NCBI RefSeq assembly: GCF_038002225.1
Contig: NZ_JBBOCA010000001.1
Span: 2,232,001-2,296,000 of the forward strand
Reading direction: 5' to 3'
DNA from: Paenibacillus sp. FSL R7-0204
Lineage (GTDB): Bacteria > Bacillota > Bacilli > Paenibacillales > Paenibacillaceae
DNA length: 64,000 bases
Shown: one piece after another, positions 5,851 through 53,849 of the stretch
How the letters are laid out: each line of letters begins with the position of its first letter
Numbering within the stretch: the stretch's first letter is position 1
The notes under the pieces: model-generated
The model's input: the letters and a program-made list of their open reading frames with translations, nothing else
Told to the model about the DNA's origin: nothing
The model's database searches: none
Position numbers and translations under genes: made by a program

Positions 5851-5851
5851 T

Positions 5852-7798: not shown

Positions 7799-7799
7799 G

Positions 7800-8324
7800 T
7801 TACTCAGTCCGTTTTCCGTACTTTTTCGCCCAGTAGTCAAGCCATTGTGAATAATCCATTCCCTTAATCTCCTTCAGCGTCTTTCCATCTATTGAATACT
7901 CTCCGCCTGCCATGACGAGATTTTTAATTTTACTTACTGGACCGGAAATTCCGCCTATGACCTCACTGTCTACAAGCATCACTATTACAGAAATAGTGTA
8001 ATCATCTGGGCTATACAACTGTTCCAGTGGATGATCCCTTACAGTGAATTGATAAGAGACGATTTCTTTCCCGAAGAAGGCATCAGGCTCTTCCTCCTGA
8101 ACTGCCCAGAGCTGCATATAATCCGGAGTTTCAAGCCTTTCCTGCTCCAAGGTATATTTTGCCGCCTCTCCTTCATGGACAATAATCGTGTAACCAAGAG
8201 CTTGAAGATAATCGGCGGCAATTTGTTCGTCGGTCTTTTCCTCAGCAGAATCTTCCTTGTTGCATCCAACCATTGCTAACAGCACAAGGAATGGAAGAAG
8301 AAATAACAATCTTTTTCGTTTCAT
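7800..8324 (-). CDS. Lipoprotein of unknown function
   Basis: 174 residues from ATG 8324. Signal peptide with lipobox (LLFLLPFLVLLAMVGC, Cys 21), acidic linker (NKEDSAEEKTDEQ), then a small alpha/beta domain (IAADYLQALGYTII, VSYQFTVRDH, YTISVIVMLVDSEVIGGISG). The layout recalls DUF4830-like exported proteins. It is the third gene of a minus-strand run 9705, 9102, 8324 with gaps of 36 and 16 bases, so it is probably co-transcribed with the protease and the anchored protein. Confidence 0.7.
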   Translation of the reverse strand: MKRKRLLFLLPFLVLLAMVGCNKEDSAEEKTDEQIAADYLQALGYTIIVHEGEAAKYTLEQERLETPDYMQLWAVQEEEPDAFFGKEIVSYQFTVRDHPLEQLYSPDDYTISVIVMLVDSEVIGGISGPVSKIKNLVMAGGEYSIDGKTLKEIKGMDYSQWLDYWAKKYGKRTE

Positions 8325-8340
8325 TAATTCCAGCCTGCTC

Positions 8341-18900: not shown

Positions 18901-19538
18901 TTATCGGCGGTAAATATTTTGCCCGGATTAACAGTTTAACGAACAGCACGTATTCGGTGGTGTATCACCCGCTGGAGTTTACAGATATGGCTCAGCATTG
19001 GGCTAAAACTGAAGTGAATGACATGGGTTCAAGAATGGTCATCAACGGTATCGGCAAAGATCTGTTTAATCCGGATCAGGCGATTACCCGGGCTGAATTC
19101 GCTACGGTTGTGGTTCGCGGATTAGGCTTGAAACTGGTAGACGGTGTGACTTCATTTAGCGATTTGAGTACAACAGATTGGTACAGCAGTGCGATTCAAA
19201 CCTTGTATGAGTACAAGCTGATCGATGGATTTGAGGACGGAACCTTCAGACCGATGGATACCATTACACGTGAACAGGCGATGAAAATCATCTCTCAAGC
19301 GATGGCACTAACGGATCTGAAATCCAAACTTTCCAGTACACCATCCTCAGATGCACTCAAACCATTCACAGATGGAATGAAAGCGGCAGAATGGGCTAAG
19401 GCAAGTATTGCAGAAGTTGTTCAATCCGGAATCATTACAGGCAGAAGCAGCACCATCCTTGCTCCAAAAGATAATATTTCAAGAGCAGAGGTAGCCGTTA
19501 TTATCCGCAGACTGCTCCAACAATCCAATTTAATCTAA
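12945..19538 (+). CDS. Giant S-layer-like protein with 20 tandem modules and 3 SLH domains
   Basis: 2197 residues from ATG 12945 (CTGGAGG upstream). Signal peptide to about residue 39 (LLAGMLVIVLLNSPVF, then KAFA-A). An unassigned 190-residue N-domain follows. Then come 20 DUF4073-like modules (NTITGLTxxMEFQVxGGxYVxY): six of type A (VEGGAYVQY, 77 residues) and fourteen of type B (VDGGTYVKYTG, 76 residues). After these are a PTPTPT linker, a domain of about 230 residues common in Paenibacillus wall proteins, and three SLH domains at about 2003-2197 (FTDMAQHWAK, FSDLSTTDWYS, FTDGMKAAEWAK). SLH domains bind pyruvylated wall polymer, so the protein should be displayed on the surface, perhaps as adhesin or S-layer component. 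Confidence 0.92.
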   Translation: MKKNSSKNRSTTKKLLAGMLVIVLLNSPVFGHLVPKAFAASGTLIFSGVQKKNGGVILQDGMNFNSGDMLSNDIPGIVLKIFNVNRNDVTLPVGSFSFRSDLASKIPGNQPAVVPISASSGAYNSGRGPDIMIIKSENGDAFSFKSIIAMDADAIRLTKFEGFLNGVSTGSVILSMNTSTYYESYTQSNGLTPSIFQNVNEIRISNQTDGDMFWGNAMGFNNIEIGEPVIASTPPAAPSVSADDDANTITGLTTAMEFQVEGGAYVQYNGSNAPDLSGTKTVKVRVAADSSTSTPAGAETTLNFTTNVPNAPAAPSVTADDVTNTITGLTTAMEFQVEGGAYVQYNGSNAPDLSGTKTVKVRVAADSSTSTPAGADTTLNFTTNAPNAPAAPSVTADDVTNTITGLTTAMEFQVEGGAYVQYNGSNAPDLSGTKTVKVRVAADSSTSTPAGADTTLNFTTNVPNAPAAPSVTADDVTNTITGLTTAMEFQVEGGAYVQYDGSNAPDLSGTKTVKVRVAADSSTSTPAGAETTLNFTTNAPNAPAAPSVTADDVTNTITGLTTAMEFQVEGGAYVQYNGSNAPDLSGTKTVKVRVAADSSTSTPAGADTTLNFTTNVPNAPAAPSVTADDVTNTITGLTTAMEFQVEGGAYVQYDGSNAPDLSGTKTVKVRVAADSSTSTPAGADTTLTFTTNPPAPAAPSVTANDAANTITGLTEDMEFQVDGGTYVKYTGSNAPDLTGAHTVKVRVPADATTGTPAGAETTLTFTTNPPAPAAPSVTANDAANTITGLTTGMEFQVDGGTYVKYTGSNAPDLTGAHTVKVRVPADATTGTPAGADTTLTFTTNPPAPAAPNVTANDAANTITGLTTGMEFQVDGGTYVKYTGSNAPDLTGAHTVKVRVPADATTGTPAGADTTLTFTTNPPAPAAPSVTANDAANTITGLTTGMEFQVDGGTYVKYTGANAPDLTGAHTVKVRVPADATTGTPAGADTTLTFATNPPAPAAPSVTANDAANTITGLTEDMEFQVDGGTYVKYTGSNAPDLTGAHTVKVRVPADAATGTPAGAETTLTFTTNPPAPAAPSVTANDAANTITGLTEDMEFQVDGGTYVKYTGSNAPDLTGAHTVKVRVPADATTGTPAGADTTLTFTTNPPAPAAPNVTANDAANTITGLTTAMEFQVDGGTYVKYTGSNAPDLTGAHTVKVRVPADATTGTPAGAETTLTFTTNPPAPAAPSVTANDAANTITGLTTGMEFQVDGGTYVKYTGSNAPDLTGAHTVKVRVPADATTGTPAGADTTLTFTTNPPAPAAPSVTANDAANTITGLTTGMEFQVDGGTYVKYTGSNAPDLTGAHTVKVRVPADATTGTPAGADTTLTFTTNPPAPAAPSVTANDAANTITGLTEDMEFQVDGGTYVKYTGSNAPDLTGAHTVKVRVPADAATGTPAGAETTLTFTTNPPAPAAPSVTANDAANTITGLTTAMEFQVDGGTYVKYTGSNAPDLTGAHTVKVRVPADATTGTPAGADTTLTFTTNPPAPAAPSVTANDAANTITGLTEDMEFQVDGGTYVKYTGSNAPDLTGAHTVKVRVPADATTGTPAGADTTLTFTTNPPAPAAPSVTANDAANTITGLTEDMEFQVDGGTYVKYTGSNAPDLTGAHTVKVRVPADATTGTPAGADTTLTFTTNPPAPAAPSVTANDAANTITGLTEDMEFQVDGGTYVKYTGSNAPDLTGAHTVKVRVPADATTGTPAGAEATLTFTTNPPAPAAPTSPTPTPTPTPTPTATQVTAVEVLVNGKVENAGTAATSTKNNQSVITIMVDEQKLEQKLAAEGQNAVITIPVKIHSDVVIGELNGRMLQSMEQKQAVIQVKTDQATYSIPAQQVNIGSIAEKLGQSVVLQDITIQLEIAAPTAHTVSLVQNSAQKDNLSIVVPAIDFIVRAVYGDRTIEVTKFDAYVERTLAIPEGVDQSRITTGIVVEPDGKVRHVPTKVVIIGGKYFARINSLTNSTYSVVYHPLEFTDMAQHWAKTEVNDMGSRMVINGIGKDLFNPDQAITRAEFATVVVRGLGLKLVDGVTSFSDLSTTDWYSSAIQTLYEYKLIDGFEDGTFRPMDTITREQAMKIISQAMALTDLKSKLSSTPSSDALKPFTDGMKAAEWAKASIAEVVQSGIITGRSSTILAPKDNISRAEVAVIIRRLLQQSNLI
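13641..18212 (+). repeat. Tandem 231/228-bp coding repeats (6 + 14)
   Basis: Type A units run 13641-15020 with a 231-bp period (first unit slightly shorter) and type B units 15021-18212 with an exact 228-bp period. Copies are nearly identical at DNA level and differ by a few alternating variants (TTGMEF, TTAMEF or EDMEF; GADTT or GAETT). This points to recent amplification and recombination between units. Copy number is likely to vary between strains and could be mis-assembled from short reads. Confidence 0.9.
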
Positions 19539-34147: not shown

Positions 34148-35446
34148 ATGAACGGATTTTTAGGGATATTACAGAAAATGGTCGTTCCGCTTGCAGCGAA
34201 ATTATCTTCGAACAAAGCTTTGCAATCGGTTTCTAAAGGTCTTATGGGTTTGATGGTAATCATGATGATGGGTGCTTTTTCAACGATATTGAGCAGTTTG
34301 CCATTCGATGCTTATCAGAACTTTTTAGTGTCTTCTAATTTAAAAGGAGTATTTAACACTCTGCTCAACGTTACAACAAATATGCTGGGGGTATACGCAG
34401 CATTTTCCATTGCTTATTCCTATGTCTCAAATGAAGATAAAGATGGATTCTCAGCAGGTGCAATCAGCCTCATGTGCTTTTTTATCGTTACTCCATTGAC
34501 AGTCGCAGGAGAGGGCTACATGGCAGTTACGAATTTGCCGTTGGATTGGATAGGGCCAAAGGGCTTATTCACCGCAATGATCGTTGCTATTGTAGTTTCC
34601 AAATTGTATGTATTGATTATTAACCGGAATATAACGATTAAAATGCCTGAAGGGGTTCCGGAATTTGTATCCAAATCCTTTGTAAGCATTATTCCGGGTA
34701 TTGTTATTGGCATGCTTTTTGCCGCTATTTCTTATCTGCTATCCTTAACCAGCTTCGGGGACATGCATCAAATCATTTATAAACTGATTCAAATTCCTCT
34801 TACAGGTCTTGGATCCAGTATCTGGGCTGCATTGCTGGTGTATGTATTGATTGGGTTGTGCTGGTTCTTCGGGGTTCATGGCATGGCAGTAATGTCAGTG
34901 GTGATTCCAATCTGGGCAGCACTTGATGCCGAGAATATGGTTGGCGTTGCTGCAGGCGTGGCCAATGCGGATTTGCCCAATATTGTAACTCTTAACTGGG
35001 TAAGTGCAGTGGCTACTATCGGTGGTGCCGGTTCAACTATTGGTTTAGTGATTTGGCTGACCTTTAAAGCTAAATCAAAGCAATATAAAGTATTTGGCAA
35101 AATGGCGCTTATTCCTTCTCTCTTTAATATAAATGAACCAGTAATCTTCGGGCTTCCTGTAATGTTGAACCCGTTACTGTTTATTCCATTTGTATTTACT
35201 CCTGTATTGCTAATCGGGCTGGCATACATTTTAGTTACGATCGGAATATTGCCAATTTCGAATGGAATCGGGGCGCCCATGGGCACACCATTAGTGCTTC
35301 AAGGCTTCTTTAATGGAGGCTGGAGGTTAGGGTTGTACCAGGTGTTCGGAGTCCTGCTGTCATTGGTCATATACTATCCGTTCTTTAGAATAATGGATAA
35401 AAAAGCTGTTGAAGAAGAATCCGCTGCTGAGATGGCAGCTCAATAA
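34148..35446 (+). CDS. PTS cellobiose/beta-glucoside EIIC permease
   Basis: 432 residues from ATG 34148 (AATGGGGGTCAGGT upstream). Multi-pass EIIC of the Lac/Cel family with the conserved regions FFGVHGMAVMSVVIPIWAA and FNINEPVIFGLPVMLNPLLF that form the sugar site. It carries a beta-glucoside across the membrane while EIIB phosphorylates it. Ends in an acidic tail (AVEEESAAEMAAQ). Confidence 0.94.
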   Translation: MNGFLGILQKMVVPLAAKLSSNKALQSVSKGLMGLMVIMMMGAFSTILSSLPFDAYQNFLVSSNLKGVFNTLLNVTTNMLGVYAAFSIAYSYVSNEDKDGFSAGAISLMCFFIVTPLTVAGEGYMAVTNLPLDWIGPKGLFTAMIVAIVVSKLYVLIINRNITIKMPEGVPEFVSKSFVSIIPGIVIGMLFAAISYLLSLTSFGDMHQIIYKLIQIPLTGLGSSIWAALLVYVLIGLCWFFGVHGMAVMSVVIPIWAALDAENMVGVAAGVANADLPNIVTLNWVSAVATIGGAGSTIGLVIWLTFKAKSKQYKVFGKMALIPSLFNINEPVIFGLPVMLNPLLFIPFVFTPVLLIGLAYILVTIGILPISNGIGAPMGTPLVLQGFFNGGWRLGLYQVFGVLLSLVIYYPFFRIMDKKAVEEESAAEMAAQ

Positions 35447-35487
35447 GGTCTACATGTGAGTGATGATAAGTGGAGGGAGGTGGGGAA

Positions 35488-38034
35488 ATGAATAAAATAG
35501 GCGATATTTATGCTAATAAATTCGAAAATTTTATTTTCCCATTTTTTTGGATGCATGGAGAGTCAGAAGAAGTACTAGTGGATTACATGCAAAAAATTCA
35601 TGACAGCCATATTGGTGCGGTTTGTCTGGAATCAAGACCTCATCCGGATTTTATGGGTGACAGATGGTGGGCTGATCTGGATATTATCGTTAGAGAAGCC
35701 AAACGGTTGAATATGAAGATTTGGATACTGGATGACTCACACTTCCCGACAGGCTATGCGAATGGTCTGGTTAAGGAGAAGTATCCCGACAGGCTAAAAA
35801 CACTCTTGACACACCGGGTTGTCGAAGTCTTTGGACCCAAGGATAGCATCGGGGTTATGACAGCCAATATATTCGATCCCACTGCCCGATTAATCGCTGT
35901 TTACGCCAAGCAAGACGATAAAATCATTGATCTGAAGGATCAAATCGATGATGAGATAATTTACTTTAATATTCCCGCAGGTTCATGGAAAGTATATCTA
36001 CTCTATGAGTCCAGGAAAGTGGATTATAATCCGGATTATATTAATATGGTGGACAAAGAATCCTGCGATGTATTAATTGAAGCGGTATATGAGCCACACT
36101 ACCAACGGTATAAAGAAGAATTCGGGAGAACAATTGCGGGATTCTTCTCGGATGAGCCTGGATTTATGAATGAAAAAGGAGTACGGAATGACAGCAGGAT
36201 TGGTAAATTAATGCCGCTTCCCTGGAGCAGGCAGGTTAAAGAAATGTTGCAATTAAGATTGGGTAAGGATTACCTGCTACAGTTATCCTCTCTATGGTAT
36301 GACGAAACATGCAGTCCTGAAATCAGACATGTCTTTATGGATATCTGTACCACACTGTACAAAGAGTGCTTTAGTGATAACTTGGGGAATTGGTGCAGGG
36401 AACGCAATGTTGAGTATGTGGGCCATGTTATTGAAGACCGTGATTCCAATGCCAGACTTGGTGTGGGTGCCGGGCATCTGTTCAGAGCGATGGCGGGGCA
36501 GGATATGGCGGGCGTCGATGTTGTGCTGAATCAACTGATTCCGGGAATGGATTCTGGTGAACATCCTACATTCAGAGGTACGTGGGACAGCGAGTTCTTC
36601 CATTATGCCTTAGTGAAGATGGCCTCATCTCTAGGGGCAATTGATCCCAAGAAGAAAGGCAGAACGATGGCAGAAGTATTTGGCGCTTACGGCTGGTACG
36701 AGGGCGTGAAGATGATGAAGTGGATCGTGGATCATTTCTTAATCCGCGGAGTGAGTTATTTTGTTCCACATGCCTTCTCACTGAAAGGATTTCCTGATAT
36801 GGATTGCCCTCCACACTTCTATGCCAATGGAAATGATCCTCAATTCAGGTATTTCGGTGATTTAATGAAATATGTCAATAAAATGAGCACACTCTTCAGT
36901 GGAACGAAAGGAAAACCGACTGCGGCCATTCTATATCATGCGGAGGCTGAATGGACGGGAGACTTCATGCTGACGCAAAAACCGGCAAGGGTACTGACCC
37001 AGCAGCAGATTGACTTTCATATTTTACCTAATGATATCTTTACATTCAAGGATAGCTTTCTTACCGTATTAGATAACTATCTGCATGTGAATGGCTATGA
37101 GTACCAGTGCTTAATCCTCCCTTATTGTGAATGTATCAGTGAGGAATTGGCTCAATTCATTATTGCTTCCGCAAATTCTCATCTGAGAATTATCTGCATA
37201 GATGCATTGCCTAGCAAACTATTTAATAGCAGCAATACAGATTTACTCAATCAAATGTCTCATGTGGAAGTAGTAAAACTGGATGAGCTGTCTCATTACA
37301 TGAAAGCCAATCAGTTACACCATATTGAGGTGGCAACTTCCGAACCCTATTTGAGATTTGCTTCTTTTGCCCATGAGGACGGAGAGTATTTAATGTTCTT
37401 TAATGAGGATCCGTTGAATATGATTCAGACCTCAATTAAGATTGAATCGGATAAGCCCATATACAAATTTGATGTTCTTAATAATAAGATCACCAAAGTG
37501 GAGTATGACGGCAAGAGCTTCCCGCTTGTATTGTCTCCATACGAATCATTTGTCTATGTGTTGGGAGAGATTGATGCAAGTATTGTAGGTACAGAAGTTA
37601 TAATTGGTCATAAAGTGAAGGTAGTTGACTCACCCTATAAGGTAAGTATTGCAAATGCTCAGGAATATCCTGATTTTAGAGAAGCGTTCACCATGGAGCA
37701 GCTGGAGAATTTATCATTAACCAAGTACTTGCCTAAATTCTCGGGAACATTCAGATATGAAACTGAAGTCCAATTGGATCAAGATATTAACGCAGCCATC
37801 CTGGACTTGGGAAGAGTGTTTGAAGTAGCTGATGTCACTATAAACGGCACATTTATTGGCACCAGGATCTGTCCACCTTATCATTTTGAAGCCCACAATA
37901 TTCTTAAATCAGGAATGAATACAATATGCGTGGATGTAACGAATACGTTGGATAAGCAGCTTAGGGATTACTTTTCTTACGGTGAAGAAATTCAGCCTTC
38001 GGGATTATTGGACAATATTGTTATCAAATATTAA
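35488..38034 (+). CDS. Glycoside hydrolase, GH106/rhamnosidase-like, cytoplasmic
   Basis: 848 residues from ATG 35488 with GGAGGGAGGTGGGG upstream, no signal peptide. N-terminal TIM-barrel-like part (FPFFWMHGESEEVLVDYM, KIWILDDSHFPTGYANG) with a candidate acidic pair in AGFFSDEPGFMNEKG and a later EHPTFRGTWDSEFFHY. The C-terminal 100 residues are a galactose-binding-like jelly roll (AAILDLGRVFEVADVTING, GMNTICVDVTNTLDKQLRDY). This layout recalls GH106 alpha-L-rhamnosidases and related unclassified families. Between EIIC and EIIB genes, it probably trims an imported phosphorylated glycoside that carries a second sugar. Confidence 0.65.
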   Translation: MNKIGDIYANKFENFIFPFFWMHGESEEVLVDYMQKIHDSHIGAVCLESRPHPDFMGDRWWADLDIIVREAKRLNMKIWILDDSHFPTGYANGLVKEKYPDRLKTLLTHRVVEVFGPKDSIGVMTANIFDPTARLIAVYAKQDDKIIDLKDQIDDEIIYFNIPAGSWKVYLLYESRKVDYNPDYINMVDKESCDVLIEAVYEPHYQRYKEEFGRTIAGFFSDEPGFMNEKGVRNDSRIGKLMPLPWSRQVKEMLQLRLGKDYLLQLSSLWYDETCSPEIRHVFMDICTTLYKECFSDNLGNWCRERNVEYVGHVIEDRDSNARLGVGAGHLFRAMAGQDMAGVDVVLNQLIPGMDSGEHPTFRGTWDSEFFHYALVKMASSLGAIDPKKKGRTMAEVFGAYGWYEGVKMMKWIVDHFLIRGVSYFVPHAFSLKGFPDMDCPPHFYANGNDPQFRYFGDLMKYVNKMSTLFSGTKGKPTAAILYHAEAEWTGDFMLTQKPARVLTQQQIDFHILPNDIFTFKDSFLTVLDNYLHVNGYEYQCLILPYCECISEELAQFIIASANSHLRIICIDALPSKLFNSSNTDLLNQMSHVEVVKLDELSHYMKANQLHHIEVATSEPYLRFASFAHEDGEYLMFFNEDPLNMIQTSIKIESDKPIYKFDVLNNKITKVEYDGKSFPLVLSPYESFVYVLGEIDASIVGTEVIIGHKVKVVDSPYKVSIANAQEYPDFREAFTMEQLENLSLTKYLPKFSGTFRYETEVQLDQDINAAILDLGRVFEVADVTINGTFIGTRICPPYHFEAHNILKSGMNTICVDVTNTLDKQLRDYFSYGEEIQPSGLLDNIVIKY

Positions 38035-38045
38035 GGAGAGTTCTA

Positions 38046-39807
<1,762 letters not shown>

Positions 39808-39816
39808 TTGTTTAAT

Positions 39817-39858
39817 CAAGTAGTGGGCCTCTAGTTAGGAGAGATCCACTGCTTTTTT
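39817..39858 (+). terminator. Terminator of the PTS operon
   Basis: AGTAGTGG / CCACTGCT with inner CTC / GAG pairing, then TTTTTT, 10 bases after the GH1 stop codon. Confidence 0.8.
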
Positions 39859-39946
39859 ACAATGCCGCCCAGTCCCGATAATTGTAAAACCGGGGTAGGC
39901 TAAGGGAAGAGTGAGGCAAGATAATATGTTGCAAGGAGGGATAGTT

Positions 39947-41875
39947 ATGGATGCACGGCAAACGACGATCCTCCGACTACTGCTAGCTGCGGATGCTCCG
40001 CTTAATGGTAAGTTTTTAGCGGAAAGAAACAATGTTACTTCCAGGACTACCCGGAGCGATATCCATTCCCTAAACCGTATTTTGAAACAACATGGCGCAG
40101 AGGTTGAGCCAGTCCACGGGATAGGGTATCAGCTCCGAATTCAAGATGATTCGCTGTTTCGCGAATGGTTGGCAGGTCAACTTCGGGATGAGAAGCCCGT
40201 TAATTATGCAAATCCAGATAACAGAGTTAACAAAATTATACATCTGATGTTTACTGCTAATGGGTACATTCGCTCGGAAGAATTGGCAGATATGATGTAT
40301 GTTAGCAAATCCACCTTGCAGAACGACCTCAAGGAGGTTAAAAGGAAGCTTGAACTTTATCATATTACGGTTGAAGCAAAACCTCATCACGGGCTAAGAA
40401 TACGCGGTGATGAAATGAAAATACGGTTTGGAATGTCTGAACTTTTATTTGACCGCGAGAACAGTCATTCCGATTCTATGTACGTTAATTTGTTCTCATT
40501 TCTAGAACATGATCTTACCGTCATTCGATCTTCGGTCACAAAGCACGTACAGAACTACGGTGTAGAGTTGTCGGACACCGGACTCAACAACCTGATTATT
40601 CATATTGCCATTGCTTGTCAACGGATTAAAAATGATCATAATATCATTGAATTACCGGGTGAGCATCATTTCATGGAACAAAAGCAGGAATACGAGGCTG
40701 CCAGAACCATCGTTACTGACATTGAAAAGTTATTGTCTCTAAAATTTCCAGAGACTGAGATAACGTATATCACAATGCATCTGCTTGGTACCAAACTGTT
40801 ATCCGCAGTGGGAACGGATGAACGGGAGATTACTCGTTGGGTGGATAAAGATACCTATCAATATGCAATGGATATTATGAAGGCTATCGAGTCCAAGCTT
40901 AAGCTTGGCATAAGCGGTGATCCAGAACTGCTGAAGAGTCTGTGTCTACACCTTCGGCCTGCTCTTAATAGAATTCGCTATGGAATGAGCTTGCGTAATC
41001 CAATGCTGGAATCCATCCAATCGACCTACCCATTAGCATTTCAAGGTGGCGTAATCGCTGGAATGGTTATTCAACAGAAGATGGGGCGTCATGTTTCTGA
41101 GAATGAGATTGGTTACCTGGCATTGCACATTGGAGCGGCTATGGAACGCAGGAGGGAATCTTATCCACCGAAGCGCTGTATCATCGTGTGTAGTTCTGGT
41201 GTGGGCAGTGCCAGATTATTATTTCATAAATTGCGTATTCAATTTGGAGTTCGGCTGGATATTGTGGACACGATCGGATATTATAAGCTGGCTCACACGG
41301 ATCTGGATAACATTGATTTGATTATCAGTACGGTTCCCATAGCTCTTGATATCTCTGTTCCGGTCATTATTGTTAATTCACTGCTTGGAAATGGTGATTT
41401 AATGAGGATTGAACAGGCTATTACAGGTGTTTCTGACAACGATATGGACTATCTGCAGGAAGATTTAACATTTGTTTCCTGCGATTTCAATTCCCGCGAA
41501 GAGGTTTTACGGTTCCTTTGTGATCAGTTACAGCACAAGGGGCTGGTTGGAACGGATTTTTATGATCTTGTTGTGCAGAGGGAAGAGGTGACACCAACTT
41601 CATTTGGGAATAGCGTAGCTATCCCACATCCTATTTTACCTCAAACTGAACATACTTTTTGGGCGATCTGTACACTGCAAAAGCCAGTAAACTGGGGATC
41701 AAAGCCTGTACAATTCATCTGTTTGCTGTGTATCGCAAAAGATGGCGAGGCAGGTGATTTGACTACTATGTATGATCTTCTCGTCCGAGTAGTGGATGAT
41801 GCTAATCTGGTTCAGAAATTAATTAAATGCCAAAATTATCAGCAAATCCATCATATATTCCGGACAAAATCCTAA
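39947..41875 (+). CDS. PRD-containing transcriptional activator (LicR/BglG type)
   Basis: 642 residues from ATG 39947 (AAGGAGGG upstream). Order: N-terminal HTH (TTILRLLLAADAPLNGKFLA, VTSRTTRSDIHSLN), second HTH (VSKSTLQNDLKEVKRKL), PRD1 (about 170-275, with LIIHIAIACQRI), PRD2 (about 285-400, CLHLRPALNRIRYGMSLRNP), EIIB-like domain (IIVCSSGVGSARLLFHKL, Cys), EIIA-type domain (SFGNSVAIPHPILPQT, His). PTS proteins phosphorylate these sites to report sugar transport, so it most likely activates the upstream PTS operon and its own downstream GH3 gene. Confidence 0.92.
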   Translation: MDARQTTILRLLLAADAPLNGKFLAERNNVTSRTTRSDIHSLNRILKQHGAEVEPVHGIGYQLRIQDDSLFREWLAGQLRDEKPVNYANPDNRVNKIIHLMFTANGYIRSEELADMMYVSKSTLQNDLKEVKRKLELYHITVEAKPHHGLRIRGDEMKIRFGMSELLFDRENSHSDSMYVNLFSFLEHDLTVIRSSVTKHVQNYGVELSDTGLNNLIIHIAIACQRIKNDHNIIELPGEHHFMEQKQEYEAARTIVTDIEKLLSLKFPETEITYITMHLLGTKLLSAVGTDEREITRWVDKDTYQYAMDIMKAIESKLKLGISGDPELLKSLCLHLRPALNRIRYGMSLRNPMLESIQSTYPLAFQGGVIAGMVIQQKMGRHVSENEIGYLALHIGAAMERRRESYPPKRCIIVCSSGVGSARLLFHKLRIQFGVRLDIVDTIGYYKLAHTDLDNIDLIISTVPIALDISVPVIIVNSLLGNGDLMRIEQAITGVSDNDMDYLQEDLTFVSCDFNSREEVLRFLCDQLQHKGLVGTDFYDLVVQREEVTPTSFGNSVAIPHPILPQTEHTFWAICTLQKPVNWGSKPVQFICLLCIAKDGEAGDLTTMYDLLVRVVDDANLVQKLIKCQNYQQIHHIFRTKS

Positions 41876-41901
41876 CTAACTATTGAGGAGTGAAGAGACT
41901 A

Positions 41902-44184
41902 GTGGAACGTGATATTCGAAAGATAGTAAGTAACATGACCTTAACCGAAAAAGCGGAGCTGTGCTCCGGGTCCAACTTCTGGTCAACAAAAGCCGTAGAC
42001 CGATTGGGCATTCCATCTATTACATTAACCGACGGTCCGCATGGTCTCCGCAAGCAGGCGGGAGAACCGGATCATCTGGGACTTAATGAGAGTGTGCCGT
42101 CTACCTGCTTCCCTTCCGCTGCTGGTCTGGCGAGCTCCTGGAATCGTGATCTGGTACAGAGTGTAGGTGAAGCCATCGGCAAGGAAGCACAGGCTGAAGA
42201 TATAGCGGTCGTCCTTGGACCTGCCGTCAATATCAAGCGTTCCCCACTCTGCGGACGTAATTTCGAATATTTCTCGGAGGACCCTTACCTGACGGGAGAA
42301 CTGGCTGCAGCACACATTGCAGGAGTGCAAGGCCAGGGAGTAGGCACATCCCTGAAGCATTTTGCCGTCAATAATCAGGAGCATCGGCGGATGACAACAG
42401 ATGCCATTGTCGACGATCGTACATTAAGAGAAATTTATCTGACCGGTTTTGAAAAGGCGGTAAAGCAATCTCAGCCCTGGACGGTGATGTCCTCTTATAA
42501 CAAGGTCAACGGAACGTATGCCTCCCAAAATGAAACCTTGCTGACCACGATTCTGAAAGAAGAATGGGGACATGAAGGCATCGTGGTCTCCGATTGGGCT
42601 GCGGTTAGTGAAATTGTGCCAAGTGTTGTAGCCGGTATGGAGCTGGAGATGCCTTCTTCTAACGGCGAAGGACCTAAGCAAATTATAAAAGCTGTAAATC
42701 AAGGAGAATTATCAGAAGAGAAGCTTGATCTGGCTGTGGAAAGGCTCTTGAATGTCATCTTTAAAGCAGCCGATTCCAGGCGTGAGGGTACTAGTTATGA
42801 TCGGACAGCCCATCATAAGCTGGCGAGAAGGGTTGCGGGAGAATCAATGGTCTTGCTCAAGAATGAGGATCAAGTTCTCCCATTGAGAAAAAGTGGCCGG
42901 ATTGCGGTTATCGGTGATCTGGCTACGAAGGTGAGATATCAAGGTGGCGGCAGCTCTCATATCAGACCGACACAGTTGGACAGTATTTATGAACAAATTT
43001 CGATATCCGCAGGGTCTGAAGCTTCGATCTCTTTTAAGCAGGGTTACGATCAGGGCTCAGATGATACGAACCCGTCTATGCTGGATGAAGCAGTGAAGGC
43101 TGCAGAAGCTGCAGATGTGGCCGTACTAGTAGTAGGTTTGCCAGACCGCTATGAATCAGAGGGATATGACCGTTCGCATTTGGATATACCGGTCAATCAG
43201 CAGGAGATTATTTCTGCCATTGCTGCAGTTCAGCCTAACGTGGTGGTGGTTCTATGCAACGGAGCACCTATTCTCATGCCGTGGTTGGGTGAGGTGAAGG
43301 CTGTTCTGGAAGGTTATTTGGGTGGTCAGGGAGCTGGTGGAGCCATCGCTGACCTGCTGTTTGGAGATGTCAACCCGAGCGGCAAACTGGCGGAGACCTT
43401 CCCGCAATCATTGAAGCATAATCCGTCCTATTTATTCTTCCCTGGCGATGGAGACCGTGTCGAATACCGGGAAGGGGTGTATGTCGGTTATCGCTATTAT
43501 GACATGAAGGATATTGAACCTTTATTTCCTTTCGGCTACGGCTTAAGCTATACCCGATTTGCATACTCCGGCTTAACAGTGAGCCAGACGGAAATTAAGG
43601 ATACCGAAACGCTCACCGTCACCGTAAATGTGAAAAACACGGGTTCTATCTTTGGCAAGGAAGTGGTGCAGTTGTACGTTCATGACTGTGAGTCTGAGGT
43701 TAGCCGCCCTGAGAAAGAGCTTAAAGGCTTCGCCAAAGTAGCTCTTGAACCGGGAGAAGAAACAACCGTTTCGTTTACCTTGGACAAGCGCAGTTTTGCC
43801 TACTACAGTGTTGAACGTACAGCGTGGCATGTGGAGAGCGGAGAATTCGATATTCTAATAGGCTCCTCTTCGCGGGACATCTCGTTGCAGACGAAGCTCC
43901 ATGTGGTATCCACTTCAGAGGAGATCGTGCCGACATATGACCGGAATACTGCCCTTGGTGAATTGCTTTCGAATCCGAAGACGTTAGCAGTCTTGGACCA
44001 ACTTCAAGGATTGGCTCCACAGAGTGCCGAAAGTGCATCCTCTGACGCCATTTCTAGGGAGATGATACAGGCCTCAATGAAGTATATGCCTCTGAGGGCA
44101 TTAATTCCGTTTACAGGTGGAGAACTTACGGAAGAGGCATTGTCCATGCTGCTTGTGCAGCTTAAAACAGTAGTACGTCAATAA
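41902..44184 (+). CDS. GH3 beta-glucosidase
   Basis: 760 residues. GTG 41902 is chosen because TTGAGGAG lies 12 bases upstream; the in-frame GTG at 41890 overlaps that site. The GH3 N-domain has [49 protein letters not shown] and nucleophile Asp in [14 protein letters not shown]. Then the C-domain ([19 protein letters not shown]), a fibronectin-III-like tail ([20 protein letters not shown]) and an extra C-terminal helix block. No signal peptide, so it acts inside the cell. It follows the PRD regulator by 26 bases. Confidence 0.94.
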
Positions 44185-44394: not shown

Positions 44395-44438
44395 TTCGAC
44401 AAAAAGATAATTATTCATTACAATGAGAATGATTATCA
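44395..44438 (+). promoter_or_regulatory. Promoter with Fur box for the AraC gene
   Basis: TGAGAATGATTATCA at 44424-44438 matches the 7-1-7 Fur box TGATAATNATTATCA at all but one fixed position. It directly follows a -10 TACAAT (44419) with a weak -35 TTCGAC (44395, 18-base space), so Fur-iron would block transcription. Confidence 0.8.
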
Positions 44439-44465
44439 TATAGAGAACACATGGAGTGCTTAATT

Positions 44466-45434
44466 ATGAACAATTCGATTCAATATAATTTCAATCATTT
44501 CTTTGACAAGCTTGAAGTAGGTCATCAAGCCGGAAGTTCAAGCCATATGCTTCATCCTACGACAGGAATAGGACAGATTCTTCGATTGTACCCACGCTCT
44601 GAGTTGGAGATGGTTATGTCAGACTATAAGCTGTACCAGGACCATGATATACGCCTAGATTCACTCGCGCCAATGGTAGAGTTTGGGTATTGTTATGAGG
44701 GTAGCAGGGAGATAAGTGTACCTGGCGCTCGTCAGGAGTTCATGCCTGCCAATTGGAGTTTGCAACTGATTAATACCTCGGAAGCGAGATTGGAGCTAGG
44801 CCAAGCACAATCCTTTCGAATGTTGGGCATCGGGATGTCTGTCGGCGTGTTTCATCATTTTATGACCTCCATCGGGGGAGTGCAAAGGGCTGACTTTAAC
44901 AGCCTACTTGGAGGAAAGTCGTATCGGTTGCTTCAGGAGAAGCCTCCAGCTTCCGCCAGTGCTTCGCTTCACCACATTGCAGCAAGCCTAAGAGATGGAA
45001 CGATGAATAATATTGAGCTGGAGTATACGGTGTTAGAACTCCTGGAACTGGCGCTCCGCACTTTTCTTGAAGGAAAAGAGGAACGGATAGGGATTAGCCA
45101 AGAGACCCAGCTGCGCGTTGGCGAAGCGCGCCGAATAATCCTGGAGCAGATGGATAATCCTCCATCATTGTTGCAGCTGTCGCGTATGGTCGGTTTGAAT
45201 GATTACAAGCTCAAGGTGGGCTTCAAGGAAATGTATGGCAACACAATCTTTGGATACCTACGAGAGAAGAGGATGGAGCAGGCTTTAAAGCTACTTCAAG
45301 CCGGCAAGTCCAACGTCATTGAAGTGTCATGCGCAGTGGGCTACTCGAATCCAAGCCATTTTGCCGAGGCGTTCCGCAAGAAATTCGGGGTAAATCCCAG
45401 CGCATTACTACGTGAAAATTCTTCCCGGATATAA
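44466..45434 (+). CDS. AraC-family regulator, probably siderophore-responsive
   Basis: 322 residues from ATG 44466 (ATGGAGTG upstream). Residues 1-215 form an effector domain with GREISVPGARQEF-type beta strands. Residues 225-322 are the double HTH: RIILEQMDNPPSLLQLSRMV, LNDYKLKVGFKEMYGNTIF, NVIEVSCAVGYSNPSHFAEA, FRKKFGVNPSALL. The layout and the SRMVGLNDYKLKxGFKExYGxTxFxYLRxxRMExA pattern are those of PchR/YbtA-type regulators, which switch on siderophore genes when the ferri-siderophore is present. The Fur box upstream supports an iron role. Confidence 0.85.
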   Translation: MNNSIQYNFNHFFDKLEVGHQAGSSSHMLHPTTGIGQILRLYPRSELEMVMSDYKLYQDHDIRLDSLAPMVEFGYCYEGSREISVPGARQEFMPANWSLQLINTSEARLELGQAQSFRMLGIGMSVGVFHHFMTSIGGVQRADFNSLLGGKSYRLLQEKPPASASASLHHIAASLRDGTMNNIELEYTVLELLELALRTFLEGKEERIGISQETQLRVGEARRIILEQMDNPPSLLQLSRMVGLNDYKLKVGFKEMYGNTIFGYLREKRMEQALKLLQAGKSNVIEVSCAVGYSNPSHFAEAFRKKFGVNPSALLRENSSRI

Positions 45435-48677: not shown

Positions 48678-48888
48678 AAAACAAACAGAATGTCCTCCTT
48701 TCTCTCCAAACATTACCAGCAATACAAATTGCGATCAATTTAAACATTTGGATATTTGTAGACAAAATGGATATTTCTTTTGTAACAATTCGTCAGAGCT
48801 ACCTGAGATGCTTTGGAATACAAAGCATAACGTCCGTTGTCTGCTCCCCCAATGTCACTTAATGATGATATACTTACCTTGAGTATTA

Positions 48889-48903
48889 TGATAATGATAA
48901 TCA
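48889..48903 (+). promoter_or_regulatory. Fur box of the AraC/siderophore uptake operon
   Basis: TGATAATGATAATCA matches the Fur 7-1-7 consensus at all but one fixed position, 40 bases before the start of the fusion gene. Iron would repress the whole uptake operon through Fur. Confidence 0.85.
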
Positions 48904-48943
48904 AAATCATTTTAGGGTCGGTATATCAATTGGGACAAGTGAG

Positions 48944-50929
48944 ATGAGGGAGCGCGGATTGATGCAAGAAGAAGCAGAAGCTAGACAGATATTTACACCA
49001 GAGATGATCGATACGATGGCCCGCATTTGGACACGTTCGATCATTACATTAATAGATGTACGCTTTGAGAATCTAGCGTCCGCATACCCTTTGGAGCAGT
49101 ATAAAATGCCTAGCAGCATGTTTATCTATGCCTGTGGAGGGGAAGCGCAAATTCAACTGAATGAAACGACATTCGGAATGGAACGCTTCGGTCTAGTTCA
49201 TGGCGGGAAGGGGAGCCTGCTCAGTATTTGGCCTAAAAGGGAGAGTGTGAAGACCTTTATGGTCTTTTATAAAGCGGAATCCCCTCTTTTCCACAAAAAG
49301 CACCTGCAGCAATTACTGGAGCAAGTCAATCCATTTGTTCAGCAGTTTGGTTATACACCAAGTAATCCCATTCTGCTGCTCGACTGGTTTCAACAAATGT
49401 TGAATGACTGGAACCGCGGCAAGGCGATGGATCAGCTTCAGGCCAAAGGGTTTCTATATCAATTGATCCATAGGGTGTATAGAGATTTTGAGGGGGGCGA
49501 GATTCGCTATCTCCAGCCCTTTCCAGCCAGTTCTGCCAAAATATATCTAGATAAACATTACCGGGAGCCGATTATGTTCCAGGATATTGCCGCTATGTTT
49601 GGGATCAGTGGCGGGCAATTAACGCGGTTGTTCAAAAAGAAGGAAGGGATGAGCTTACAGGAGTACCTCATTCAGAAAAGGATTGAAGCTGCTTGTCATG
49701 ACTTGAAGTATACAGAGGCAACCATTAAAGAGATAGCAACAGGATCTGGATTTGCTGATGAGAAGAACCTGTTTCGGATGTTTAAGAAGTATTACAAGAT
49801 GACGCCGAGTGATTACCGGAAAATAAACGCACCATCCATGCAGGTTGATGGTATTGATAATGATTCTCATCTTCATTACAATGAGAGGGAACTGGCGAGT
49901 CTAGTCAAGTCTTATAGAGATGGGGAATCAAGCATGTTTGGACAAGTACGAAGTAAAGAAATGATCTTTGTGGCGGCGATGAGCCTGATGCTGTTGCTGA
50001 CGGCATGTACGTCGGGGACGCCAGCGAATAATAGGGGAACGGTGAATCCGTCTGCGGAGACCGGGCAGACGACACAACCGGAAGTACAGGAGACGAAGGC
50101 TTCAGAAGCAGTCTCGCAGACCAGAACGATATCTACAGTAAAGGGCGATGTTGAGGTGCCTGGCAACCCTCAGCGTGTTGTAGTCGATTATCTGGTTGGT
50201 GATGTGGTAGCTTTGGGTGTAACTCCTCTTGGTGTGGCGAGAGCGACAAAGGGTGAGACAGAGGCGGTGTATTCTAACGAGATTAAAGATTCAATTAACA
50301 TAAAGATGGAGCCGGAAGATGTCATGGCTCTTGAGCCTGATCTGATCATATTAGCATGGGGCGAAGAGAATTATGAGGATTTATCCAAAATTGCCCCGAC
50401 CATTTATGTCCCTTATGGTGATATGACTACAGAAGAGCGTATCCATTTTATTGGCAATGTTCTGAATAAGCCGAAAGAGGCTGAGGCTGTTTTGAGTGCT
50501 TATGCTAACAAAATCGAAGAAGCGAAGCTATCCCTTAAGAATGCAGGCCTTGCAGACGTGACGATTACGATGGGAGAATTCGGTGATAAAACGAACTCCA
50601 TCGCTGGAGCCAAACATGCGGTTGGCGAGCTTGTGTATAATCAGCTTCAAATGAAGGCACCGTCAAAAGTTCAATCTGATATTATTGACGCAGATAAATA
50701 TTGGGGACAGATCTCTATGGAGGTCTTGCCCGCTTACATGGGGGATTATTTAATCGCCTTAGGAGATACGGAAGTTCCTGCTGATCATGCAGTTTGGAAA
50801 TCACTACCTGCTGTGCAACATAACCGGATTGTAACGGTGGGTTCATCGCTATCTTGGTCCACGGATATAATGACCTCCAGTGCATTGATCGATCATATTG
50901 TCAATCAATTGCTGGCATTAGCTAAATAA
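48944..50929 (+). CDS. AraC regulator fused in frame to a ferri-siderophore binding lipoprotein
   Basis: 661 codons; ATG 48962 with GAGGGAG upstream may be the real start. Residues 1-190 form a cupin-type sensor. Residues 195-293 are an AraC double HTH (IMFQDIAAMFGISGGQLTRL, TIKEIATGSGFADEKNLFRM, YYKMTPSDYRK). Residues 331-355 form a complete lipoprotein signal ending LLLTAC. Residues 400-661 are a FecB/FepB-type binding protein (VEVPGNPQRVVVDYLVGDVV, MALEPDLIILAWGEENYEDL). The Btr regulator of Bacillus also joins AraC to a binding-protein domain but, as I recall, has no lipobox. Inside the frame are a promoter and Fur box (49854-49882) and an internal ATG 49934 with GGGGAA, so two separate products are likely. 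Confidence 0.88.
   Translation: MRERGLMQEEAEARQIFTPEMIDTMARIWTRSIITLIDVRFENLASAYPLEQYKMPSSMFIYACGGEAQIQLNETTFGMERFGLVHGGKGSLLSIWPKRESVKTFMVFYKAESPLFHKKHLQQLLEQVNPFVQQFGYTPSNPILLLDWFQQMLNDWNRGKAMDQLQAKGFLYQLIHRVYRDFEGGEIRYLQPFPASSAKIYLDKHYREPIMFQDIAAMFGISGGQLTRLFKKKEGMSLQEYLIQKRIEAACHDLKYTEATIKEIATGSGFADEKNLFRMFKKYYKMTPSDYRKINAPSMQVDGIDNDSHLHYNERELASLVKSYRDGESSMFGQVRSKEMIFVAAMSLMLLLTACTSGTPANNRGTVNPSAETGQTTQPEVQETKASEAVSQTRTISTVKGDVEVPGNPQRVVVDYLVGDVVALGVTPLGVARATKGETEAVYSNEIKDSINIKMEPEDVMALEPDLIILAWGEENYEDLSKIAPTIYVPYGDMTTEERIHFIGNVLNKPKEAEAVLSAYANKIEEAKLSLKNAGLADVTITMGEFGDKTNSIAGAKHAVGELVYNQLQMKAPSKVQSDIIDADKYWGQISMEVLPAYMGDYLIALGDTEVPADHAVWKSLPAVQHNRIVTVGSSLSWSTDIMTSSALIDHIVNQLLALAK
49854..49882 (+). 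promoter_or_regulatory. Internal Fur-controlled promoter inside the fusion gene
   Basis: TTGATA (49854), 17 bases, TACAAT (49877) form a near-consensus sigma-A promoter. TGATAATGATTCTCA (49855-49869) overlaps the -35 and fits the Fur box with one mismatch. The site is 52 bases before the internal start ATG 49934. The encoded residues (about 304-313) lie in the linker between the two domains. Confidence 0.75.
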
Positions 50930-50946: not shown

Positions 50947-51972
50947 ATGAAAAACAAGCCTGAACAAAATCGTCGTGGGGCGGTGAACTTCACCATGTAC
51001 ATGGTGGTAGGGCTTGGATTAACGGTTCTCATGTCAGCGGCGTCGATTAGCTTTGGTGCCGCTGACATGAGGTTAGCGACTGCATGGGAGGCTATTTTCC
51101 GGTTTGATCCAACGCTCACTGAACATCAAATTATTCAAACCCTACGTCTTCCGCGTACTGTAGCCGATCTGATCGTCGGGTGCAGCCTTGCGGTTTGTGG
51201 TGCGATCATGCAGGGGACAACGCGTAATCCGCTGGCCGACTCCGGGCTGATGGGAATCAGCTCCGGGGCAGCATTCGCGATTGCGCTGTGCCTGGCCTTC
51301 CTACCGGGGTATTCGTATGGGCAGATGATGCTGTTTGCTTGTCTGGGAGCAGCGCTCGCGACCGGGATCACGTACTTCATCGCGTCACTGGGCAAGCGCG
51401 GGATGACACCTCAGCGGCTGGTGCTGGCAGGGCTGTCCATCTCCATGCTGTTTGGCGCACTCAGTCAGTATTTGGCGATCAATTACAACCTGGGCCGGGC
51501 CTTGGCATTCTGGACCGCAGGCAGTACAGCCGGGGCCAAGTGGGAGGAATTACTGATTATCTCTCCTCTATTTGCTGGAGGTGTACTGCTGGCGTTGGCG
51601 CTGGCTCCTTCTGTTACTCTGCTTAGTCTGGGAGATGATGTGGCAAGTGGACTCGGTATTCGCAGCGGACTGGTCAAGGGGCTGTCGACAATTACCGTGC
51701 TCGTGCTGACTGGATTGGCTGTTGTCGTGGTTGGCCCAATCGGTTTTGTGGGTCTGATTACCCCGCATATTGTACGATACATGGTCGGTGTCGACTACAG
51801 GTACATTATTCCGGCTGCGGCGCTATATGGTGCGTTGCTGACCGTATCGGCCGATCTGGCTGGCCGTTTAATCAATAGGCCGTTCGAAACACCGATTGGT
51901 ATTATTTTTTCTATCATTGGTGTGCCGTACTTTCTCTTCCTGGCCCGCAGGCAAAGGAGGGAATTCGAATGA
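50947..51972 (+). CDS. FecCD-type iron-siderophore ABC permease (1)
   Basis: 341 residues from ATG 50947, 17 bases after the fusion gene. Ten-helix FecCD permease: LRLPRTVADLIVGCSLAVCG, MQGTTRNPLADSGLMGISSG (the conserved NPLA.P/S..LG region), VLAGLSISMLFGALSQYL, IGFVGLITPHIVRYMVGVDY (coupling region to the ATPase). With the next permease it forms the membrane channel for the siderophore bound by the lipoprotein. Its stop overlaps the next start by 4 bases. Confidence 0.94.
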   Translation: MKNKPEQNRRGAVNFTMYMVVGLGLTVLMSAASISFGAADMRLATAWEAIFRFDPTLTEHQIIQTLRLPRTVADLIVGCSLAVCGAIMQGTTRNPLADSGLMGISSGAAFAIALCLAFLPGYSYGQMMLFACLGAALATGITYFIASLGKRGMTPQRLVLAGLSISMLFGALSQYLAINYNLGRALAFWTAGSTAGAKWEELLIISPLFAGGVLLALALAPSVTLLSLGDDVASGLGIRSGLVKGLSTITVLVLTGLAVVVVGPIGFVGLITPHIVRYMVGVDYRYIIPAAALYGALLTVSADLAGRLINRPFETPIGIIFSIIGVPYFLFLARRQRREFE

Positions 51973-52982
51973 TCAAGCAGCGTTATACGGTGCAACGGGG
52001 TATCCTCGTCAATGTAGTGCTTATGGTGCTTATCCTTATGTTTGCTGTCATTAGCATGAATTCCGGCAAGATGAATCTTTCACCGCTAGAAGTGCTGAAT
52101 GTCCTCCTTGGAAACGGTACCGGCAAGCAAAATCTGATCCTGTTCGATTTTCGAATGCCACGAATCGTACTGTCGATCTTGGTAGGTCTGGGAATGGGCG
52201 CGGCTGGGGTCGTGATGCAGAGTTTGCTGCGCAATGACATGGCTAGTCCGGGGACACTGGGGATTAGTTCAGGATCGGGTTTGTTTGTCCTGTTCTTCGT
52301 AGTATTCATCGCATCGGCAGGAAAAAGTTCCTTCATTGCCCTGCCGCTGCTGGCCTTTGTTGGCGGTCTGCTGGCGGCGGGATTGATCTTCTTATTATCG
52401 TATCACCGTGGGCGAAACCTCTCGCCAATCGGTCTGATCTTAACCGGGGTCGCACTCGGAAGCGGGTATGGGGCGCTGACCACCTTCCTGACACTCAAGC
52501 TGGATGATTCGCAGATGGACTTCATGCTGAATTGGCTGGCGGGGAGCTTGTGGGGCGCTGATTGGCGCTATATTGCCGTACTGGCACCATGGGTCTTGAT
52601 TTTAATCGGCTATATTTTCTACAAGTCCCGGATGCTGAACACCCTCCATCTGGGCTATCAAACGGCAGAAGGGCTGGGACTTTCCGTGAAGCGGCAGTTT
52701 TTGGGGTTGTCGATCGCTGCTGTTGCTTTATCCTCTGGCAGTGTGGCTGTTGGCGGAAGCTTCTTCTTCGTTGGTTTGATTGCTCCGCATATGGCAAGGA
52801 AACTGGTCGGGCCTGATCACAAATTACTCATTCCGGCTGCCAGCCTGACCGGCGGATTAGTCGTGGTGCTGGCTGACACGATTACGCGCACGGTTAACCT
52901 GGGGGGAGATGTGCCGACGGGAATCGTTATTACGGTCATCAGTGTTCCGTACTTTCTTTATTTACTAGCGAAGGCCAATTAG
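51969..52982 (+). CDS. FecCD-type iron-siderophore ABC permease (2)
   Basis: 337 residues from ATG 51969, overlapping the first permease gene (ATGA), so translation is coupled. FRMPRIVLSILVGLGMGAAG, MQSLLRNDMASPGTLGISSG, ILTGVALGSGYGALTTFL, FFFVGLIAPHMARKLVGPDH. In this copy NPLA is replaced by NDMA, as is usual for FeuC/YfhA-type partners. Works as heterodimer with the 50947 permease. Confidence 0.94.
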   Translation: MIKQRYTVQRGILVNVVLMVLILMFAVISMNSGKMNLSPLEVLNVLLGNGTGKQNLILFDFRMPRIVLSILVGLGMGAAGVVMQSLLRNDMASPGTLGISSGSGLFVLFFVVFIASAGKSSFIALPLLAFVGGLLAAGLIFLLSYHRGRNLSPIGLILTGVALGSGYGALTTFLTLKLDDSQMDFMLNWLAGSLWGADWRYIAVLAPWVLILIGYIFYKSRMLNTLHLGYQTAEGLGLSVKRQFLGLSIAAVALSSGSVAVGGSFFFVGLIAPHMARKLVGPDHKLLIPAASLTGGLVVVLADTITRTVNLGGDVPTGIVITVISVPYFLYLLAKAN

Positions 52983-52991
52983 GAGGACGTC

Positions 52992-53849
52992 ATGGAAAGT
53001 ATTACAGCAGAGCAAATTGATATTGCCTATAATGACACACTTATCGTCAAAGAACTGGATTTGCAGATTCCGCGTGGACAGATCACCTCGATTATTGGTC
53101 CCAATGGCTGCGGCAAATCAACCGTACTCAAGGCAGTCGGCCGGCTGCTCAAGCCGAATAATGGTACGGTCTATCTGAATGGTGCCGATATCCGCACACT
53201 GTCCACCAGGGAAGTCGCCAAGCAGATGGCGATTCTGCCGCAGACGCCAACCGCACCGAGCGGCTTGACAGTCGGCCAATTAGTCGCCTATGGGCGTTTT
53301 CCTCATCAACGGGGTTTCGGCAAGCTCTCCAAAGAGGATAAGCAAGTAGTCACCTGGGCGCTATCGGTTACACAGCTTACAGCGTTTGAGCATCGTGAGG
53401 TCGATACGCTCTCTGGCGGTCAGCGTCAGCGCGTATGGATTGCGATGGCGCTCACCCAGCAGACCGATCTGATCCTGCTGGATGAACCCACCACTTATCT
53501 GGACCTGGCGCATCAGCTCGAAGTGCTGGAACTGCTCTATGAACTGAATCGCAGTCAGCAGGTGACGATTGTGATGGTGCTGCATGACCTGAATCTGGCA
53601 GCGCGCTTCTCCGACTATATGGTGGCGATTCGTGAGGGCCAGGTGGTGGAGCATGGCTCGCCAGAGCGTGTAATGACGGTGCAGACGCTGCGTGAGGTGT
53701 TCGCTATTGATGCCGAAATTATGCTGGAACCGCGAACAGGGCGGCCGGTGTATGTGACGTACGAGCTATTGCGTGATAAGCGTAGAGACCAAGCAGCAGA
53801 TCAAGGATTCCTGCAAGCTGAGGAACAGAAGGAGTCGATTGCCACATGA
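52992..53849 (+). CDS. Iron-siderophore ABC transporter ATPase
   Basis: 285 residues from ATG 52992 (TTAGGAGGACGTC upstream). Walker A GPNGCGKSTVLKAVGRLL, Q-loop MAILPQTPTAPSGLTVG, signature DTLSGGQRQRVWIAMAL, Walker B LILLDEPTTYLDLAHQ, H-loop MVLHDLNLAARFSD: a complete FecE/YusV-type ATPase. It drives uptake through the two permeases. The C-terminal 30 residues are hydrophilic and extend beyond the usual length. Its last 4 bases overlap the next start. Confidence 0.95.
   Translation: MESITAEQIDIAYNDTLIVKELDLQIPRGQITSIIGPNGCGKSTVLKAVGRLLKPNNGTVYLNGADIRTLSTREVAKQMAILPQTPTAPSGLTVGQLVAYGRFPHQRGFGKLSKEDKQVVTWALSVTQLTAFEHREVDTLSGGQRQRVWIAMALTQQTDLILLDEPTTYLDLAHQLEVLELLYELNRSQQVTIVMVLHDLNLAARFSDYMVAIREGQVVEHGSPERVMTVQTLREVFAIDAEIMLEPRTGRPVYVTYELLRDKRRDQAADQGFLQAEEQKESIAT

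Follow-up and report, generated by a model that had tools for sequence, protein, structure and literature searches.

In the genome of Paenibacillus sp. FSL R7-0204, an AraC-type regulator and a siderophore-binding lipoprotein share one reading frame, and the DNA that joins them resembles a promoter. This locus raises the question of whether one gene specifies a single fused protein, a free receptor, or both. The frame was first noticed in a sequence-only reading of the window, by which we mean the whole 64,000-nucleotide stretch of DNA analysed here; all features of the gene given below are on the forward strand. The region 48944-50929 is a single open frame (661 aa from the ATG at 48944). The ATG at 48962 is the likelier start, since it is preceded by AGGGAG at 48947-48952 and an ortholog that is 86% identical (L002) carries a TAG just 5' of the matching ATG. 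That TAG was considered as a stop between the domains and rejected, as it sits upstream of the real start. From 48962 to 50929 the full-length frame encodes 655 aa and, by open-frame scan and Pfam, consists of an AraC-type regulator, a linker, a lipoprotein signal and a siderophore-binding domain.

The domain assignments of the sequence-only reading were borne out. The AraC DNA-binding domain, which had been placed as ending at about residue 293, corresponds to HTH_18 at 49586-49822 (Pfam, residues 215-293 of the 661-aa frame), with scores of 78 and 45.2 bits to HTH_18 and HTH_AraC against curated cut-offs of 33.6 and 26.6. It is followed by a linker of 37 codons (49823-49933) and by the expected lipoprotein signal peptide, MFGQVRSKEMIFVAAMSLMLLLTAC (49934-50008), which runs from the Met codon at 49934 to the Cys codon at 50006-50008 and ends in the lipobox LTAC. 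The domain described as FecB-like is Peripla_BP_2 (50198-50848; Pfam, residues 419-635 of the 661-aa frame), and its best solved relatives in both sequence and fold are FhuD/FhuD2-type proteins. With Peripla_BP_2 behind a lipobox that follows an n-region and a hydrophobic core, the receptor half has the make-up of a siderophore-binding lipoprotein, and its relatives in sequence and fold make it a predicted ferric-siderophore binder. Genes for two FecCD permeases and an ATPase lie immediately downstream (50947-53849, Pfam), in an order kept in orthologs L091-L095, and probably form one transcription unit with the receptor. A structure model predicted from 10 sequences was of low quality outside the HTH and receptor domains (mean pLDDT 56.7), and interdomain geometry was therefore left unused.

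The linker DNA carries the elements of a separate transcription and translation unit. A sigma-A-like promoter, TTGATA-N17-TACAAT (49854-49882, with the -35 at 49854-49859 and the -10 at 49877-49882), is overlapped by a Fur box with one mismatch, TGATAATGATTCTCA (49855-49869, 14/15 in the 7-1-7 pattern, centre free), and a ribosome site, GGGGA at 49922-49926, stands seven bases before the ATG at 49934 (49922-49936 in all). These elements had been recognized in the sequence-only reading, and they are conserved in the 13 rows formed by the window gene and 12 orthologs: the Fur box matches at 13-15 of 15 positions, TTGATA, GGGGAATCA and the ATG are present in every row, and the -10 is TACAAT in 11 rows and TACTAT in two. 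A Fur box upstream of the whole gene had escaped that reading. This box, TGATAATGATAATCA (48889-48903, 14/15), is overlapped by another at 48895-48909 (13/15), and an upstream box of 13-14/15 is found in the window gene and 7 aligned orthologs. Within a 360-nt stretch around the regulator start, a box of at least 13/15 was present in 85 of 105 family members, compared with 0 of 105 for the control.

Across the 7.7-Mb genome, 27 sites lie within one mismatch of the Fur box, whereas the reversed-pattern control gave one. Five of the 27 are in the linkers of the five lipobox fusions found in this genome, and three more are just upstream of three of these five. The internal Fur box is thus above chance, and control of both promoters by Fur is predicted from the boxes. 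Elsewhere in the window, a Fur-like box of 14/15 (44424-44438) stands directly before a 327-aa AraC-family gene (HTH_18; 44424-45434); an MFS transporter comes next, at 45706, and the two genes may be a further iron-controlled pair of regulator and exporter.

The sequence-only reading had offered recent loss of a stop codon as one explanation of the fusion, had named a sequencing error hiding a stop near 49830-49930 as a possible refutation, and had looked to relatives for a stop between the domains. The window gene and its 12 orthologs are open throughout, as is the wider family, so that a lost stop or a sequencing error confined to this strain was rejected and has a negligible probability. 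Named carriers of the window ortholog include Paenibacillus silagei, P. tritici, P. eucommiae, P. paeoniae, P. gorillae and P. radicis. A scan of long frames for a lipobox pattern within them yielded 26 fusions (57 of the first 59 loci, two duplicates omitted); the 24 other than L002 are 27-34% identical to the window protein. Two further members, L041 (MNAC) and L008 (TGA inside the HTH part), were missed by the filters on pattern or length. A profile of the linker, covering the stretch from HTH to lipobox, was then searched with stops read through (E<=1e-20), although, being built from open fusions, it favours open relatives. It matched in 48 of 148 family genomes and 12 of 19 genera (195 matches counted per genome), with no stops among the matches listed, and in 28 of 250 class genomes (100 matches counted per genome), with a stop in one row. 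Some rows fall in short, broken frames, and one class-level match (G329) spans only profile positions 3-76. Regulator and receptor share one frame in a whole family of such genes, more generally than had been claimed; judged by these matches, the fusion is old and widespread, occurring in Paenibacillus and in some of its relatives.

To count stop codons, we drew from 155 loci a set of 111 non-identical linker matches that reach from the HTH to the lipobox. Two contained stops. L144 is a decayed copy with further frameshifts or truncations in its regulator and receptor halves, and L030 is a 31-bit match to two separate genes. With L097 (59 bits) below the score limit, 108 stop-free linkers remain, and L144 is the only one of 109 linkers over 60 bits with an in-frame stop. 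Outside the Fur box, the two alternative frames of the 107 linkers with both ends defined contain 132 and 250 stops in 3850 codons. A first-order Markov null for the same region predicts about 69 in-frame stops over 39 clusters, with a log10 probability of none of about -30; the in-frame count of zero in this calculation reflects the removal of stop-containing rows, of which L144 alone exceeds 60 bits. An initial null (293 expected in 107 linkers, 117 in 42 clusters) was set aside as less fair, because it included the Fur box, whose fixed TGA/TAA triplets raise the stops in the other frames and inflate the null. The frame has long been kept open, and its openness looks to be under selection.

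Conservation of the linker is of an unusual kind. Among the window gene and 12 orthologs, synonymous differences in the linker amount to 0.107 per site, 2-3 fold lower than the 0.23-0.32 of the rest of the gene, whereas nonsynonymous differences (0.069) are ordinary. None of 10,000 random sets of 37 codon columns was as low as the linker, and the lowest synonymous value in a window clear of it was 0.161. The suppression was first seen with 7 orthologs and then with 12. Since synonymous changes are suppressed while amino acids drift, the linker is constrained as DNA. Its pN/pS is 0.64, compared with 0.07-0.28 for the regulator and receptor halves, each of which is under purifying selection; the amino acids of the linker are hardly constrained, and the data thus point to no specific function of the linker peptide.

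The same elements recur across the family. Of 108 linkers, 97 have a Fur box of at least 13/15; in all 108 the best box has the identical codon phase, and in 87 a start codon lies exactly 25 nt past it. A ribosome-site match of at least 4 bases precedes 86 of these 87 fixed-distance starts, compared with 62 of 354 other internal ATGs in the 26 fusions; the fixed-distance count replaces an initial choice of internal starts that was biased, as it took the best ribosome site among the candidates. When the Fur box was recoded synonymously in each linker, only one of 108 linkers stood out at the 1% level. The test is weak because amino acids such as DNHYQ nearly spell a Fur box, and codon counts were therefore pooled by cluster. 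In 33 clusters, AAT:AAC is 36:0 in Fur-box codons and 12:11 in the HTH part (p 5e-6), and CAA:CAG is 26:1 compared with 14:24 (p 4e-7). The bias extends to GAT:GAC (p 0.002) and TAT:TAC (p 0.009); for CAT:CAC it was not significant in these clusters (p 0.23). Within any single linker the Fur box is mostly dictated by the encoded amino acids, which counts against a reading with two products.

Upstream of the Fur box, most family linkers contain a further repeated element. In 34 clusters the match rate at a lag of 22 bases is 0.343, compared with 0.23-0.28 at other lags from 8 to 39; a weaker second periodicity is seen at lag 27 (0.305). A model of two half-sites, each approximately GATCNTCCATTG, fits 32 of 36 linker clusters at a leave-one-out p<=0.05, and the repeat is placed 31 or 37 bases before the Fur box in 28 of the 36. 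Scores of at least 15 were obtained for 80 of 108 linkers, 2 of 105 stretches before the regulator's own start and 1 of 105 controls; the 108 linkers are the training set, and the leave-one-out count is the fair figure. The presence of the repeat in linkers and not before the regulator start fits AraC-type activation of the receptor promoter rather than of the regulator's own, and the 22-bp direct repeat fits a putative operator of the regulator in most family members. It was not found in the window's own clade (L091, L095; leave-one-out p about 0.5), where the linker is shorter. A conserved block, CAATGTCACTTAATGATGATATACTT (48850-48875), upstream of the gene's Fur box and largely kept in 8 aligned rows, may be the regulator's operator in that clade.

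Fifteen short or interrupted copies were also analysed; these were picked for being so rather than sampled, and their frames are as assembled, with sequencing errors possible. The regulator is broken and the receptor frame open from the linker on in six of them (L008, L099, L206, L207, L209 and L210), as expected if the lipoprotein is made alone. Three (L100, L101 and L205) keep the regulator with a broken receptor, and in five (L201, L202, L203, L204 and L208, the last being L144 with longer flanks) both halves are broken. The sole clean split is L098 (G083), which has a frameshift in the linker around 2461-2470 and halves that are otherwise intact, so that a split gene can exist; it was left out of the linker set by the coverage filter. 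The copies in these last three groups weigh against a reading with two products.

Taken together, we consider it likely that one gene gives two products here: the complete regulator-receptor chain and, from the internal Fur-controlled promoter, the lipoprotein by itself. The upstream Fur-controlled promoter would direct synthesis of a Btr-like AraC activator continued by the linker, the lipoprotein signal and the siderophore-binding domain. The second, within the linker and with its own ribosome site and ATG, would give the free lipoprotein receptor, and its output here would also cover the genes for FecC, FecD and the ATPase. Fur would shut both promoters when iron is plentiful, and both would be released when it is scarce. 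Given the cognate siderophore, the regulator would then activate expression of its receptor, which in most family members would involve binding to the 22-bp direct repeat in its own linker DNA. With a Btr-like regulator half and a FhuD-like receptor, a ferric siderophore is the likely signal. The full-length form is most likely held in the membrane by the internal signal. That two forms could coexist had been suggested in the sequence-only reading, and the internal Fur-type promoter, ribosome site and in-frame start support it.

One alternative, that these are two ordinary genes whose intergenic region is open by chance and whose full-length protein is a functionless by-product, would account for a linker that evolves as DNA and not as protein, and for L098, split with both halves intact. 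We regard it as improbable, however, given a single stop in 109 linkers over 60 bits, in a decayed copy, against about 69 expected outside the Fur box over 39 clusters; among the matches listed, rows that hit the regulator part alone lie in frames of at least 582 aa.

Other explanations concern the fate of the full-length chain. It could act as a membrane-tethered one-component regulator that binds siderophore outside and DNA, through its AraC domain, inside, with the internal promoter just adding free receptor. Domain order and the hydrophobic segment fit such a protein, the frame through the signal is kept open, and purifying selection acts on both halves. The setting of the genes is also consistent with it: FecCD matches lie near 7 of 29 longer loci, five of them window orthologs, and none within the flanks covered in the other 22, so that many fusions may be stand-alone units; neighbours were unrelated by eye in most of eight loci inspected. 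The lipobox is retained, however, so LspA may cut the protein, a membrane-held AraC dimer touching DNA is hypothetical, and the structure model is poor. This explanation is possible but, in our judgement, doubtful. The topology it presupposes is predicted from the hydrophobic signal, and cleavage by LspA at the lipobox is as possible as an intact tether. Cleavage is central to a further alternative, which we hold to be rather unlikely, in which the chain is a polyprotein that is inserted, lipidated and cut by LspA into a lipoprotein and an AraC regulator with a membrane tail, and in which this cleavage, or a subsequent release step carried out by an intramembrane protease, contributes to control. 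A lipobox pattern is present in each of the 108 linker matches, in part by construction, since the profile was itself made from lipobox fusions, and the open frame and a hydrophobic remnant are kept in L029, L048, L186 and L187, related fusions that lack the lipobox. Lipoprotein signals, on the other hand, are rarely placed after a cytoplasmic domain of 320 residues.

The two halves of the fusions differ in their histories. A tree of 85 receptor domains was built from 172 distinct sequences (92 after a redundancy filter, with 7 doubtful rows dropped). The 47 lipobox fusions in it require 15 label changes, 9 of them forced by well-supported branches, and a single clade of fusion receptors is rejected (AU p 1.3e-5). 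A first tree, which gave 16 changes, 8 forced and an AU p of 0.0002, was rebuilt because it had at least one probably broken fusion, L133, among the separate receptors. A second tree covered 58 regulator halves, every one taken from a fusion; in it, those 47 of lipobox type require one change relative to the 11 others. This grouping has a support of 66 and is set against just those 11 fusions, and both trees were built quickly and have long branches. The receptor halves are interspersed with ordinary receptors, whereas the regulator halves show no such scatter, which implies swapping of receptors. A constant module of regulator, linker and signal appears to have been joined to several receptor lineages, or receptors to have split off repeatedly.

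Several fusions lack a lipobox. L029, L048, L186 and L187 also keep a linker like that of the lipobox type, in which the best Fur-box match is 12/15 in L048 and 9/15, the background level, in L029. L056, L049 and L058 have no hydrophobic segment. The fusions with a hydrophobic remnant point to a possible transition between exported and cytosolic receptor domains, in either direction. Btr-type fusions without a lipobox occur in the same genomes as lipobox fusions, in keeping with the earlier statement that the Btr type has none. Two loci of other architecture were seen. L102 (G083, 2510-8962) has three tandem lipobox fusions on one strand beside a lipobox-free fusion and a separate receptor, and L024 (G017) is a separate receptor that lacks a regulator domain and whose open frame extends upstream across a Fur-box-like stretch, DINNENQYHLTERD.

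Btr (YbbB) of Bacillus subtilis is a bacillibactin-responsive AraC regulator with a fused binding-protein domain that senses in the cytosol. The regulator half of the window protein aligns with positions 9-270 of the 531-position Btr model (E 2.5e-16), and the order of domains, AraC followed by binding protein in one chain, is the same. The window protein nevertheless scores 59.3 bits against a curated cut-off of 900 (NCBIfam NF049932), and its gene has a lipoprotein signal and a promoter between the halves; the binding domain should be extracellular. To our knowledge the binding-protein half of Btr carries no export signal or lipobox, unlike the window protein with its hydrophobic signal and LTAC. 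The receptor half resembles FhuD/FeuA-type siderophore-binding lipoproteins of Gram-positives in its Peripla_BP_2 domain, lipobox, Fur box and adjoining FecCD genes, but its gene is the in-frame 3' half of a regulator gene. ToxR and CadC are membrane-bound one-component regulators in which a DNA-binding domain is followed by a single hydrophobic segment and an outside sensor. The window protein shares this order and differs in having an AraC-type domain, a siderophore receptor, a lipobox and a second promoter that would serve only the receptor.

Neither AraC-receptor fusions nor internal promoters are new in themselves. According to the available text of one survey (PMC13293324), 229 of 6023 Peripla_BP_2 genes in siderophore clusters have a second domain, which is HTH_18 in 98.7% of these, the domain pair of the window fusion, and the ratio of such receptors to siderophore clusters is highest in Paenibacillus (29.43). 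The main text of that survey has no matches to lipobox or signal peptide, and no passage on a promoter within a fusion was found in the text available. Neither an in-frame lipobox nor an internal promoter in such fusions was found in the literature searched, with most subscription papers beyond reach. What appears new is a conserved coding linker that would serve as tether, operator, Fur box, promoter, ribosome site and lead-in to a lipoprotein signal.

If correct, the two-product arrangement would couple sensing and capture of a siderophore in one gene, and would offer a simple way of adapting receptors to foreign siderophores in Paenibacillus, whose ratio of receptors to siderophore clusters is very high (PMC13293324). 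One could go further and see in these fusions self-contained iron-sensing cassettes: an AraC regulator that carries its receptor's operator, Fur box, promoter, ribosome site and export signal within its own coding sequence, whose full-length chain is a membrane-tethered regulator reading siderophore outside and tuned by lipobox cleavage, and whose constant module repeatedly gains new receptor domains for foreign siderophores. We offer this combined picture as a speculation that is more likely wrong than right by a good measure. For annotation there is a practical warning, in that calling the gene from the regulator start hides the start of the lipoprotein and so masks an exported receptor.

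Two other regions of the window contained features outside the iron-related genes. A PTS/glycosidase cluster at 34148-44184 comprises PTS EIIC, GH1, a PRD regulator with EIIA, and GH3, and includes an 854-aa frame (35470-38034) with no Pfam match. A group II intron match (Rfam RF00029, 12257-12332) lies upstream of a 2197-aa protein (12945-19538) that has S-layer homology domains and DUF4073 matches.
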